Positions 2,800-9,610 of a stretch of DNA of 10,000 bases are shown here, in pieces. The position numbers were made by a program, and so were the translations under genes. The stretch's first letter is position 1, and each line of letters begins with the position of its first letter. Under the pieces are notes generated by a model. The model saw nothing but the letters and a program-made list of their open reading frames with translations, was not told where the DNA came from and made no database searches. The DNA comes from Thiobacillus sp. (lineage in GTDB: Bacteria > Pseudomonadota > Gammaproteobacteria > Burkholderiales > Thiobacillaceae). The stretch covers positions 1 through 10,000 of the forward strand of contig JAIWOL010000146.1 in assembly GCA_020216925.1 (NCBI GenBank), written 5' to 3'.

Positions 2800-2828
2800 C
2801 ACAGATACCCCCTCGTCAGGAGACTGTC

Positions 2829-3341
2829 ATGAAACGAATCGCGTCTGTCGCTTTGGCGGTTTGTTGGCTGTCTGGCGCGTTGCCGGCGCACGCGGCCGGA
2901 ACCTGGGTGCAAACGCCCTACCAGCCGCCCAAGGCCCTGTTCGAGTTTTATTTCGACACCCCCGGAAAGATCGGCAGCGCGCTCTACTGGATGCGCGCCC
3001 TGATGAATCCGCTGACCGAAGCACCCTACAGTTACGCGCCCGAGGATCTCTCGCTGGTCGTAGTCATACACGGCACCGAGATCGTCACCGTGGCAAAAAA
3101 GAACGAGGCGAAATACCAGGAAGCGGTCGATCGCATGCGCTACTACGCCGGCCTGGGCGTGAAATTCAAGGTGTGCGGCCAGGCCGCGGAAGATTACGGC
3201 TATGCGGTGAAGGACTTCCAGGACTTCATCGAGGTGGTGCCCAACGCCATCACCGAACTGGCGCACTGGCAACAGCAGGGGTATGCGCTCATCCTGCCGC
3301 AAATCATGGACAAGAAAATCAACATCGAATCGATCCGCTAG
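2829..3341 (+). CDS. Exported DsrE-fold protein (second of two)
   Basis: A 170-residue protein with a clear signal peptide (residues 1-22, ending AHA-A), hence periplasmic. After a linker with YQPPKALFEFYFDTP and an aromatic-rich helix, the core has a strand-turn LVVVIHGTE (76-84), a helix (about 90-107) and GVKFKVC ending in Cys116. The same HG turn and GVxF[KR]VC motif occur in the protein at 38-535, so the two are probably distant paralogues of the DsrE/DsrF-like group. A persulfide-handling or scavenging role is inferred from the fold and the lone conserved cysteine, not shown. The ATG has a good AGGAGA site at 2818-2823. The 29-bp gap behind rsgA suggests co-transcription. The name 'DsrE family' is as specific as I can support. 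Confidence 0.8.
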   Translation: MKRIASVALAVCWLSGALPAHAAGTWVQTPYQPPKALFEFYFDTPGKIGSALYWMRALMNPLTEAPYSYAPEDLSLVVVIHGTEIVTVAKKNEAKYQEAVDRMRYYAGLGVKFKVCGQAAEDYGYAVKDFQDFIEVVPNAITELAHWQQQGYALILPQIMDKKINIESIR

Positions 3342-3430: not shown

Positions 3431-3865
3431 TCATTCCGGCCAGTGCTTGATGTAACGCTTCAGCAGGCTGTTTTCGAAATTCGCTTCCTTGAGGCAGGCG
3501 CGCGCCACGTCGTGGAAGGAAATGATGCCAAGCAGCTTGTTGCCGTCGAGGATGGGCAGGTGGCCAATGTGCGATTTGGTCATCACGTCGCGCGCGTAGT
3601 CTACCGAGTCCTCGGCGTTGGCGACGACCGGTTCGGTGACCATGATGGTGCTGACCTGCGCATCCTTCAGGTCGCAGCCTTGTTTGACCATGCCTTGCAC
3701 CACGTCGCGTTCGGTGAGCAGGCCAACCATTTCGTCGTTCCGCATCACTACCAGCGAGCCGACGCCCAGTTCGACCATCTTGCTGACCGCACTTTGCACG
3801 GAATCGCTGGGCGCGATGCTGTAAATGGTGTCGCTCTTCAGGGTGAGAATTTCGCGAATCTGCAT
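3431..3865 (-). CDS. Two-CBS-domain protein
   Basis: A 144-residue cytosolic protein made almost entirely of one Bateman module. The first CBS motif spans about residues 8-62 and ends GLLTERDVV. The second spans about 73-127 and ends GIISFHDVA. Such stand-alone CBS pairs bind adenine nucleotides (AMP, ATP or related) and act as energy or redox sensors. The partner protein is unknown, and no attached catalytic domain is present. A GGAG site precedes the ATG at 3865. It is the last gene of the leftward run, 48 bp after the DJ-1-like gene, and has its own promoter candidate (3899-3927), so it may be expressed independently of the arg operon. Confidence 0.92.
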   Translation of the reverse strand: MQIREILTLKSDTIYSIAPSDSVQSAVSKMVELGVGSLVVMRNDEMVGLLTERDVVQGMVKQGCDLKDAQVSTIMVTEPVVANAEDSVDYARDVMTKSHIGHLPILDGNKLLGIISFHDVARACLKEANFENSLLKRYIKHWPE

Positions 3866-3898: not shown

Positions 3899-3927
3899 AT
3901 CATAAAGGGGACGTCAGGCTCTGACCA
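3899..3927 (-). promoter_or_regulatory. Candidate sigma-70 promoter of the CBS-domain gene
   Basis: On the minus strand TGGTCA (3922-3927, 4 of 6 to TTGACA) is followed by a 17-bp spacer and TATGAT (3899-3904, 5 of 6 to TATAAT). It lies 34 bp upstream of the CBS ATG. The -35 falls inside the end of the DJ-1-like gene. This would give the CBS gene expression separate from the arg operon. Not confirmed beyond sequence match. Confidence 0.4.
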
Positions 3928-4465
3928 GACCGGCCTCGACCTTGCCGCGCACTTCCGCCCCCTGGAGAACCTCGACCAGCACGAGCGCGAAATCCATCGC
4001 CGTGCCCGGTCCGCGCGAGGTGATCACCGTGCCGTCGGCCACCACGGGTGCCGCACTGACGGTTACGCCGGGCGGATTCAGCGTGTCGAGAAACCCCGGG
4101 TAGCCAGTCGCCTGCCTTCCGGCGAGGATGCCGGCCTCCAGCAGCACGGTCGGGGCGGCGCAGATCGCCGCCGTGTATTTGCCGGCCGCAGCCATGCGCC
4201 GGATCAGATCGAGGATGCGCGGATCGTCCTTGAGGTGGGCGGCGCCGGGCATGCCGCCCGGCAACACCAGCATGTCGTAGCTGTCTTGCAGCGCAAGATC
4301 GAGCGTCACGTCCGGCACGATTTGCACCCCCCGGCTCGCCCTGACGATGCCGGGTTTCAACCCGGCAACGATCACCTCGATGCCGCCTCTTCTCAACAGG
4401 TCGATGATGGTAACGGCCTCGAGTTCCTCGCAGCCCTCGGCAAGTGGAACCAGCACTCTGGGCAT
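3914..4465 (-). CDS. DJ-1/PfpI (YajL-like) family protein
   Basis: A 183-residue cytosolic protein with the class I glutamine-amidotransferase-like fold of the DJ-1/YajL group. It has the nucleophile-elbow cysteine Cys102 in AAICAAPTVL and Glu16 in GCEELEAV, which matches the DJ-1 glutamate that lowers the cysteine pKa. It also has the LVLPGGMPGA loop (66-75). DJ-1/YajL proteins protect against oxidative and carbonyl stress. Chaperone, glyoxalase and deglycase activities have been proposed, and the last is disputed. The ATG at 4465 is preceded by GAGGAGG, which overlaps the yajQ stop codon, and the gap is only 10 bp, so it is co-translated with yajQ. Family assignment is firm; the exact orthologue (yajL) is likely but not certain. 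Confidence 0.92.
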   Translation of the reverse strand: MPRVLVPLAEGCEELEAVTIIDLLRRGGIEVIVAGLKPGIVRASRGVQIVPDVTLDLALQDSYDMLVLPGGMPGAAHLKDDPRILDLIRRMAAAGKYTAAICAAPTVLLEAGILAGRQATGYPGFLDTLNPPGVTVSAAPVVADGTVITSRGPGTAMDFALVLVEVLQGAEVRGKVEAGLVRA

Positions 4466-4475
4466 GAGCGCCTCC

Positions 4476-4961
4476 TCAATCGCGGAAATTCTGGTACTGC
4501 AACGGAAAGTCGGTGATGCTCTTTCTCACCAGGGCAATGGTTTCCTGAAGCACATCGCGCTTGGCACCGGATACGCGCACGGTGTCCCCCTGGATGCTGG
4601 CCTGGACCTTGAGCTTGCTGTCCTTGATGCACTTGACAATCTTCTTGGCCAGTTCGGTTTCCACGCCGGTCTTCACCGCGATGCTGCGCTTGACCTTGTT
4701 GCCGGAGACCTTTTCCACGCTGCCGACGTCGAGGCATTTCACGTCGACGCCGCGCTTGGCGAGCTTCTGCGAGAGGATGTCCTGCACCTGATCGAGCTGG
4801 AATTCGGTGTCGGCAAACACCGTCAGCTCGTAGTCGGCCTGCTCGACGCGGGCATCCGAACCCTTGAAGTCGAAGCGCGTGGACACTTCCTTGTTGACCT
4901 GATCGACGGCATTCTTCACTTCCTGCTTGTCCACCTCGGACACGATGTCGAAACTCGGCAT
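4476..4961 (-). CDS. yajQ: YajQ family protein (DUF520)
   Basis: A 161-residue protein of the usual YajQ length. It carries the family hallmarks [11 protein letters not shown] at the N-terminus, VSTRFDFKG (26-34), KRGVD, and the C-terminal LQYQNFRD. The fold is a tandem of two RNA-recognition-like domains. YajQ proteins bind nucleotides or nucleic acid, and in Xanthomonas and Pseudomonas a member binds cyclic di-GMP and works with a LysR-type regulator. Whether that holds here is unknown. The ATG at 4961 has GAAGGAAG upstream, inside the end of the bph gene, with 2 bp between the two reading frames. The same frame runs further upstream without a stop, but that part overlaps bph antiphase and lacks family residues. 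Confidence 0.95.
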
Positions 4962-4963
4962 GA

Positions 4964-5539
4964 TCAGCTTCCTTCTTCCAGAACGTGAACCTCGACCGGC
5001 GGGCCGGACTCGTCGTGAAACTCGCACGCAGCCAGCACGCCCAGTCTCGCCACCTCGTCCGCATCGCGCGCCGGATCGGCGTAAGCCGCAAACATCGCGC
5101 CAAGCGCATAGGGGCTGCCCGAACCATAGGCGTAGAACTTCGAGAACTCCTGCACGGTGCGATGCGCCGACACACCGAAAATGCCGCGCCGGTTGGCGAT
5201 CAGCACATCCATGCGGCTGGATTCGAGTTCGTCTTCCTTGTCTTCCTCGGCTTGCAGGAAATAGTTTTCCTTCAGCGCACCGTGCAGCGCATTCCAGACA
5301 CGAAAGATTTCCGCCGGCGTGGCAAACGCCGGCGGCGTTTGCTGCGCGGCAAAATAGTCCGTCAGGATGAGATGCGCCGTCGCGGTACCGGTGATGCCCA
5401 GCAGGCTGTCCCCCACCCGGATGATCTTGCGGTGGTTGACGATGTAATCGGCGGATTCCTTGCCGCCGCCCCACTTGGTCAGCGTGTCTGCGGCGATGGC
5501 GATACGGCCATTCTTCCTGACGACGGTGACGGTAGACAT
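4964..5539 (-). CDS. Betaproteobacterial proteasome homologue (BPH), HslV-related protease
   Basis: A 191-residue N-terminal-nucleophile hydrolase of the proteasome/HslV superfamily. After Met removal the chain starts [10 protein letters not shown]..., which aligns without gaps to HslV TTIVSVRRNG.... This puts Ser at position 1 (nucleophile) and Asp at 17. The probable catalytic Lys is in NHRKIIRVG (Lys38 of the precursor, shifted about four residues by an insertion). The segment AYGSGSPYA (137-145) matches HslV IGSGGPYA, which supplies another active-site Ser (Ser140 of the precursor). An acidic stretch (98-106, EEDKEDELE) fits the acidic inner chamber reported for BPH. BPH of Thiobacillus denitrificans and Cupriavidus was described as a tetradecameric double ring. 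No hslU ATPase is adjacent. The gene starts 12 bp after ppnP and ends 2 bp before yajQ. Plain HslV is the alternative, less likely because the insertions and missing hslU argue against it. Confidence 0.88.
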
Positions 5540-5551
5540 GATCCAGCCCGA

Positions 5552-5863
5552 TCAACCGAAGTGGCAGACGTAATGATACGGTTCGCCCGTCACCTCGATG
5601 TCGAAGCTGGAGTTGGCGGGGATGCTGAACGACTCGCCCTCAGGGCAGGTTTTCCAGTCTTCGCCCTTGAGCCTGTAGCGGCAGGCGCCGGCGACGGTCT
5701 CCATGATCTCGGGCGCACCGGTGTTGAAGGTGAGCGTGGCGGGCAGGATGACGCCGACGGATTTCTTCGAGCCGTCGGGCAACTGGATGGTATGCGACAC
5801 GCATTTGCCGTCGAAATAGACGTTGGCGCGGGCCTGAACCGAAACGTTGTTGAATTGGGACAT
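5552..5863 (-). CDS. ppnP: Pyrimidine/purine nucleoside phosphorylase PpnP
   Basis: A 103-residue single-domain cupin-like protein of the former DUF1255/YaiE family. PpnP splits a range of purine and pyrimidine nucleosides with phosphate into base and ribose-1-phosphate. Recognisable features are the N-terminal [15 protein letters not shown] segment, [14 protein letters not shown] (35-48), the [15 protein letters not shown] strand pair (51-65), [16 protein letters not shown] (76-91) and YHYVCHFG at the end. It is slightly longer than the 94-residue E. coli protein. The true start is 5863, where GGAG inside the end of argG is the ribosome-binding site. Only 2 bp separate it from the argG stop, indicating translational coupling. 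The same frame continues upstream, but that part lies over argG and is not real. Confidence 0.93.
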
Positions 5864-5865
5864 GC

Positions 5866-7095
<1,230 letters not shown>

Positions 7096-7383: not shown

Positions 7384-8300
7384 TCAGTTTTCGACTTTGC
7401 CGAGTAGCAGGTATTCCATCAGGGCCTTCTGTACATGCAGGCGGTTTTCCGCTTCATCCCACACCACCGATTGCGGGCCGTCGATGACCTCTGCCGTCAC
7501 TTCCTCGCCGCGGTGTGCCGGCAAGCAGTGCATGAATACGGCATCCGCCGCAGCCATCTTCATCATGTCGGCATCCACACACCAGTCGGCAAAGGCCTTC
7601 TTGCGTTCTTCGTTCTCGGCTTCGAAACCCATGCTCGTCCACACATCGGTCGTGACGAGGTCGGCGTCGCGGCACGCGTCCATCGGGTCGGCAAAACTTT
7701 CGAAATGGTCGGTGCCGTAAAGATTGGCGCGCTCGGGCTCGACTTCGTAACCGGGCGGCGTCGATACGTGCACGTTGAAATCGAGCACCTCGGCGGCTTG
7801 CAGCCAGGTGTTGCACATATTGTTCGAGTCGCCGACCCAGGCCACGGTTTTACCCTGGATCGGGCCGCGATGCTCGATGAAGGTGAAGATGTCGGCGAGG
7901 ATCTGGCAGGGATGGTATTCGTTGGTGAGCCCGTTGATGACCGGCACGCGCGAGTGCGCGGCGAAGCGCTCGATGATGTCCTGCTCGAAGGTGCGGATCA
8001 TCACGATGTCGACCATGCGCGAGATGACTTCGCCCGCGTCCTCGACCGGCTCGCCGCGGCCGAGCTGGGTGTCGCGGGTGTTGAGATAAATCGCGCTGCC
8101 ACCCAACTGGTGCATCCCGGCTTCGAAACTCAAGCGCGTGCGGGTCGAGCTTTTCTCGAAGATCATCGCCAGTGTGCGGTCGACCAGCGGGTGATACGGC
8201 TGATAGCGCTTGAAGCGCGACTTGATCAGCCGCGCGCGCTCGAACAGGTAATTCAGCTCGTCGCGCGACAAGTCCTTGAATTGCAGAAAATGCTTAGTCA

Positions 8301-8301
<1 letters not shown>
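7384..8301 (-). CDS. argF: Ornithine carbamoyltransferase
   Basis: ArgF makes citrulline from ornithine and carbamoyl phosphate. The 305-residue protein shows the carbamoyl-phosphate loop SSTRTR (51-56), HPCQ (130-133), the ornithine-binding DVWTSMG (219-225) and the catalytic HCLPAHRG loop (258-265). The length matches anabolic enzymes. The start codon overlaps the argD stop by one base (TGATG), and only a weak GGCGG site is present, so translation is likely coupled to argD. Gene order and context favour the biosynthetic rather than the catabolic (arcB) enzyme: argD precedes it, argG follows, and no arcA or arcC is present. Confidence 0.97.
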
Positions 8302-9482
<1,181 letters not shown>

Positions 9483-9561
9483 GGCAGTCCTCGTACAGCT
9501 GTTCCCGCTAGGCGGCTCTTGTCGTTCAAACAGCGTTGAAGCCAATATCGGCAGGCAAAGC

Positions 9562-9593
9562 AAAATAGAAAACGGCGGCCGTAGCCACCGTTT
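9562..9593 (-). terminator. Intrinsic-terminator-like hairpin in the argD leader
   Basis: On the minus strand a 10-bp stem (9584-9593 with 9570-9579, one G-U wobble) is closed by the tetraloop UACG with a C-G closing pair, the extra-stable cUNCGg type. It runs into TTTTCTATTTT (9572-9562). Stem, loop and U-rich tail give it the shape of a rho-independent terminator read leftward. Read rightward the wobble becomes a C-A mismatch and no T-tract follows. It lies 79 bp before the argD ATG. It could be an attenuator of the arg operon or end a transcript from further upstream. Confidence 0.6.
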
Positions 9594-9610
9594 CATGTTG
9601 CAGCGCTTTG

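Follow-up and report, generated by a model that had tools for sequence, protein, structure and literature searches.

The window analysed here, 10,000 nucleotides of a Thiobacillus sp. contig (JAIWOL010000146.1, assembly GCA_020216925.1), contains a gene for a proteasome-like protease of the BPH type, in which serine instead of threonine occupies the N-terminal nucleophile position. This raises the question of whether the gene belongs to the BPH family or to HslV, and of how serine came to occupy a position held by threonine in its closest characterised relative.

Start Site, Residue 1 and Active Site

The reading frame of the BPH gene (Table 1) begins with ATG TCT ACC. An in-frame TGA lies five codons 5′ of the ATG, the intervening codons being TCG GGC TGG ATC, and no ATG, GTG or TTG occurs between this stop and the start; a propeptide is therefore impossible, in agreement with the initial annotation. 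Methionine aminopeptidase cleaves Met before a small second residue such as Ser, and Ser1 would be exposed as residue 1 once this enzyme has removed the Met. Because the BPHs of four other genomes also carry Ser1 (82%–93% identical, codon TCC), the serine in the window is not a sequencing slip. The mature protein further contains Asp17, Lys37, Gly50, Ser139 and a GSGSPYA motif, and the acidic stretch at 98–106 (Met = 1) falls within the pore loop. The serine at mature position 1, Asp17 with the GSGSPYA loop and the acidic insertion had all been proposed initially, and each was confirmed.

Table 1. Features in the window, with genes in their minus-strand order.
Feature	Position	Strand	Basis
argD, acetylornithine transaminase (start tentative)	8301..9596	-	Profile matches
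argF, ornithine carbamoyltransferase	7384..8301	-	Profile matches
argG, argininosuccinate synthase	5866..7095	-	Profile matches
ppnP, pyrimidine/purine nucleoside phosphorylase; 3′ end 12 bp from BPH start	5552..5836	-	PF06865, E 8e-34
BPH gene, 191 aa, with predicted Ser1 at the mature N-terminus	4964..5539	-	ORF, homology and model fold match
TCT codon of the predicted N-terminal Ser1 nucleophile, immediately 3′ of ATG	5534..5536	-	Sequence
Acidic pore loop, 15 residues (mature 93–107)	5216..5260	-	Sequence
yajQ; start 2 bp past BPH stop	4476..4961	-	PF04461, E 2.6e-66; NF003819
DJ-1/PfpI family protein	3914..4465	-	Profile matches
CBS-domain protein	3431..3865	-	Profile match

Family Assignment and Operon

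The window protein matched the solved BPHs of T. denitrificans (5ovs/5ovt; phmmer E 1.1e-91) and C. metallidurans (5ovu; E 1.3e-36), values that argue against a chance reading frame, and matched T. maritima HslV far more weakly (E 2.9e-4). It scored 14.9 bits on the Pfam Proteasome model, under the cut-off of 22.4, and only 20.3 bits on the HslV model, for which the curated cut-off is 157.75. HslU was absent among the 14 window ORFs scanned, and the gene thus lacked both the score and the adjacent hslU that would mark an HslV. An AlphaFold2 monomer model (15 sequences; mean pLDDT 84.4, pTM 0.83) resembled 5ovs_A with a TM of 0.92 at 73% identity. Its low-confidence segments were residues 27–32 and pore loop residues 99–105; the centre of the pore loop is likewise described as disordered in the T. 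denitrificans crystals (PMC5777263).

Both sequence and fold were thus nearer the solved BPHs than HslV. Ser1 directly after Met, the active-site residues, the long acidic pore loop and the argG-type operon are further BPH features of the gene. BPH operons have been described that contain argG, hsp33 or pyruvate dehydrogenase genes, and for Thiobacillus BPH the argG setting is already published (PMC5777263). Judging from sequence, the gene can be assigned to BPH, with an intact active site and of the Thiobacillus argG-operon type. It is a member of a known family, found in a group where only Thr1 had been reported. The T. denitrificans BPH shares Asp17, Lys37, Gly50 and Ser139 with it, as well as the acidic pore loop, the lack of a propeptide and the argG operon (PMC5777263), whereas it differs in having Thr1; the clade of the window protein additionally has Gly47 (Ala in 137 of 139 Thiobacillus rows with Thr1) and a further 11 clade-specific positions.

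The minus-strand order in the window is argD, argF, argG, ppnP, BPH, yajQ, the DJ-1 family gene and the CBS gene, with intergenic gaps of 29, 12, 2, 10 and 48 bp from argG onward. A comparison of 68 related loci (same strand, aligned ends within 400 bp) found yajQ 3′ of BPH in 57 of the 65 loci with room for it, ppnP 5′ of BPH in 46/61, and argG at most 2.5 kb upstream in 47/53. The Ser1 relatives L011, L012, L013 and L044 retained the operon order up to their contig ends. Elsewhere in the window, two DsrE-family proteins are encoded on the plus strand (38–535 and 2826–3341), both of which look exported from a hydrophobic N-terminus judged by eye, and between them lie genes for an RNase_T exonuclease, a cytochrome-like protein (under the Pfam cut-off) and a pterin dehydratase, together with rsgA.

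Distribution of Ser1 and Thr1

The initial annotation left open whether described BPHs use Ser or Thr. Both are used, and Ser1 BPHs had already been described: in the part of the work cited here, Fuchs et al. (PMC5777263) assign Ser1 to every BPH from outside Betaproteobacteria, set these proteins against the prototypical Thr1 ones and read the split as pointing to variants that were separate from early on. A literature search by title and abstract opening returned no paper on a Ser1 BPH in Thiobacillus, and the cited portion of PMC8665760 mentions Thr1/Ser1 in general terms only.

The genus group of the window's genome was taken as Thiobacillus because the named loci nearest to the window are mostly Thiobacillus and Hydrogenophilales records. 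In this group, 44 of 56 genomes had a BPH match, and residue 1 was Ser in 5 and Thr in 34 of the 39 that could be read; G434, G438, G444, G445 and G450 had a match without a readable locus. Order-wide, a BPH match was found in 149/399 genomes and residue 1 was read in 109 of these. Among these 109, Ser1 occurred only in G046 (codon AGT), in G153, G191 and G371, each with one Thr1 and one Ser1 copy, and in the genome of the window itself. The two BPHs of G153, G191 and G371, which belong to one genus group (g34), are L213/L214 (G153), L172/L223 (G191) and L224/L145 (G371); in each pair, the Ser1 copy is divergent, on a long branch and about 40% identical to the window BPH.

Thr1 was also found outside Betaproteobacteria, in P0254 (722-kb contig; source name Pyrinomonadaceae, which we take to be Acidobacteriota) and in L075 (an Acidobacteria bin, 3.6-kb contig). 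Ser1 is therefore not limited to BPHs outside Betaproteobacteria, as the window clade, G046 and the second copies in G153, G191 and G371 indicate, nor, if the labels hold, is Thr1 limited to Betaproteobacteria. In that case, the argument for two ancient variants, as given in the cited part of PMC5777263, would be without basis. Separately, the titles of L053, L054, L032 and L020 (Bordetella parapertussis, Rhizobium sp., Gammaproteobacteria) clash with their betaproteobacterial-looking BPH loci; these are probably misnamed metagenome bins.

Repeated Exchange of the Nucleophile

Trees were computed with residue 1 masked. Protein rows were kept if their start read M[ST][TS][VILA]; this filter retained 66 of 74 new proteins, and the eight dropped all had TT at the start, so that Thr1 is slightly undercounted. 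A 120-row set was obtained by selection at 76% identity, removal of 20 names by hand (some of them Ser1) and addition of 19 BPHs and 3 HslVs, and 77 rows (31 Ser1) were hand-chosen from it; many rows are metagenome proteins taken without a DNA check. The 77-row tree required at least 12 changes between Thr and Ser at residue 1, nine of them forced by well-supported branches, and bootstrap trees required 11–12. Larger, more quickly computed trees gave 13 (120 rows, 8 forced), 15 (395 rows) and 19 changes (461 rows). Parsimony counts changes without separating gain from loss of Ser1. Placing all Ser1 rows in one clade was rejected (p-AU 6e-9). Because residue 1 switched repeatedly across the tree and a single Ser1 clade was rejected, Thr and Ser appear to be interchangeable as the nucleophile in BPH, contrary to the published two-lineage picture. 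It is this repeated switching that is new here, Ser1 per se being already known.

Frequent switching would also fit a shell or binding ring that is catalytically idle, in which residue 1 drifts with its chemistry unused. In the cited sections of PMC5777263, peptidase activity in vitro was seen for no BPH on any substrate tried, both proteins assayed being Thr1. Ser139, reportedly hydrogen-bonded to residue 1, is retained in 330/360 Thr1 rows vs 48/101 Ser1 rows (raw counts, uncorrected for kinship). However, Asp17 and Lys37 were invariant in all 461 aligned BPHs, including 101 with Ser1 (rows prefiltered by their four N-terminal residues). An unfiltered reading of residue 1 covered 213 of 214 loci (L011–L224; the window is left out of this set and L071 is cut off), and the 166 distinct genes comprised 152 Thr, 14 Ser and no other residue; in a dead site, Ala, Gly or other residues should turn up as well. 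Moreover, epoxomicin and MG132 modified BPHs, and epoxomicin sits at Thr1 in a crystal structure (PMC5777263). An idle shell is thus unlikely. Nei–Gojobori dN/dS ratios, rough given dS of up to 1.23, were 0.068–0.160 for 10 Ser1 pairs and 0.071–0.157 for 15 Thr1 pairs: purifying selection acts on both groups to a similar degree, and the Ser1 genes are not decaying.

Origin of Ser1 in Thiobacillus

In the 77-row tree, the Ser1 clade of the window comprised 12 rows (support 100/99) and fell within a larger Thiobacillus clade (31 rows, 100/100), beside a Thr1 row (95/88). Uniting the Thiobacillus Ser1 rows with other Ser1 rows was rejected for Nitrospirota (p-AU 0.0016), borderline for G046 (p-AU 0.048) and unrejected for the Thiobacillus row P0079 (p-AU 0.378), all three groupings having been named post hoc, which weakens the p values. 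P0079 may therefore share the Ser1 event of the other Thiobacillus rows. The serine codons are TCN in the window clade and AGT in G046. As TCN and AGY codons are not interconvertible by one step, Ser1 of G046 would be separate from that of the window clade. The Nitrospirota (L068, L069) and Acidobacteria (L072) Ser1 BPHs resemble the window protein in Ser1, Asp17 and Lys37 (Fuchs et al., PMC5777263), but are only about 50% identical to it and lie at another locus, where no argG-operon genes were found, and Ser1 in the Nitrospirota proteins appears to have an origin separate from that in Thiobacillus.

These data bear on the alternative that Thiobacillus acquired the Ser1 form by transfer or recombination from non-betaproteobacterial BPHs. 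Ser1 is indeed common outside Betaproteobacteria, both in PMC5777263 and among the proteins collected here, yet such an acquisition is very improbable given the nesting of Ser1 among Thr1 Thiobacillus rows with residue 1 masked, the rejected union with Nitrospirota and the unchanged operon and position. Conversion limited to a very short tract around the start codon could still have occurred. Ser1 most likely arose within Thiobacillus, in a gene at this locus that had previously carried Thr1. Overall, we consider it likely that the window gene is an argG-type BPH with an intact active site whose Ser1 arose in Thiobacillus, amid repeated Thr/Ser swaps across the family.

Gly47 was considered as a compensating residue, being present in 13/13 Ser1 Thiobacillus rows vs 2/139 Thr1 rows. 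In tree-aware pairs it accompanied Ser1 in 5.7 and the opposite in 0.2 of 8, and it ranked first in 589 column-residue tests (5.8 vs 0.3 of 10 pairs, median p 0.0625). The link was absent in 66 newly fetched sequences (0.6 vs 0.5 of 5 pairs); with old and new sequences combined, Gly47 was again first, of 658 tests, and weaker (4.8 vs 0.4 of 12, median p 0.125). As the replication failed and the residue had been picked after seeing the data, we do not claim compensation. Residues 33, 51, 54 and 123 were linked to Ser1 in raw counts and showed no significant link on the tree.

Predicted Mechanism

The window BPH is most likely an unfoldase-independent N-terminal-nucleophile protease. By homology, it would assemble into a two-ring 14-mer whose active sites face inward and whose acidic pore loop is flexible, and would act without HslU. 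Since the known inhibitor adducts are on Thr1 BPHs, the chemistry of Ser1 is something we infer: Lys37, oriented by Asp17, would deprotonate the Ser1 hydroxyl, Ser1 would attack the substrate and Gly50 would provide the oxyanion hole. Since the same swap recurred across the family, BPH has probably lost the constraint by which residue 1 stays a threonine in HslV and proteasomes.

Serine nucleophiles have been described in related particles. CodW, the B. subtilis HslV, likewise has an N-terminal Ser nucleophile, but is active with CodX only (PMC5777263). The yeast β5-T1S proteasome, a laboratory mutant, is active with a 40%–45% loss on Suc-LLVY-AMC owing to a rotated Ser1, and another substrate showed no detectable impairment (PMC4792962). 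According to the cited part of that study, the Thr1 methyl group is held by Ala46, Lys33 and Thr3 in β5, and this is offered as a reason for the invariant Thr in proteasomes and HslV. That BPH has repeatedly tolerated the cost of Ser1 suggests that its turnover is slow or specific and that it does not serve to degrade proteins in bulk. More doubtful is the wider proposal that Thr and Ser are freely exchangeable in BPH since turnover, the limit that keeps HslV and proteasomes at Thr1, does not constrain it, and that it may perform slow, specific or acyl-transfer reactions (compare the ligase connectase) instead of processive degradation.

The question of why proteasomes need Thr was approached with an engineered yeast mutant (PMC4792962), whereas BPH offers many natural Thr/Ser swaps, one of which falls within a genus with solved Thr1 structures. 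If the wider proposal is true, Thiobacillus species that are close relatives but differ in having Ser1 or Thr1 constitute a natural experiment.

Relationship to HslVU

The initial annotation described the gene as lacking hslU, which holds for its neighbourhood and fails for the genome: a separate hslV–hslU pair lies elsewhere (C124:8816–9331 and 9432–10751; hslU 668.6 bits) in the 2.04-Mb assembly, which is 84.6% complete and contains one BPH. An hslVU pair elsewhere had been named as evidence against the BPH reading if the gene also grouped inside canonical HslV; the pair exists, and the gene falls outside HslV both by model score and in the tree. The initial interpretation was thus partly supported, being right on BPH, Ser1, the active site and the loop, and having missed the hslVU genes and the known Ser1 BPHs. 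The HslV (ClpQ) of the same genome shares the proteasome-type fold by family (PF00227, over the cut-off) and differs from the window BPH in its Thr1 behind a short propeptide (MEQYRG-TTI, start Met chosen by eye) and its adjacent hslU.

That the window gene is a divergent HslV working with the genome's HslU is hardly credible, even with an hslU present and with the descent of BPH from HslV (PMC5777263), since it scores far below the HslV cut-off, the genome's own HslV adjoins hslU, and, in the cited part of PMC5777263, C. metallidurans BPH pull-downs were without HslU and BPH is reported not to conserve the residues that contact HslU. An association of Ser1 with hslVU loss was also discarded, as HslV and HslU were above their cut-offs in 8/9 Ser1-carrying genomes examined, the exception being G443 (84% complete). 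As a control, residue 1 of HslV was Thr in all 45 proteins read from the 54 genomes with HslV over the cut-off.
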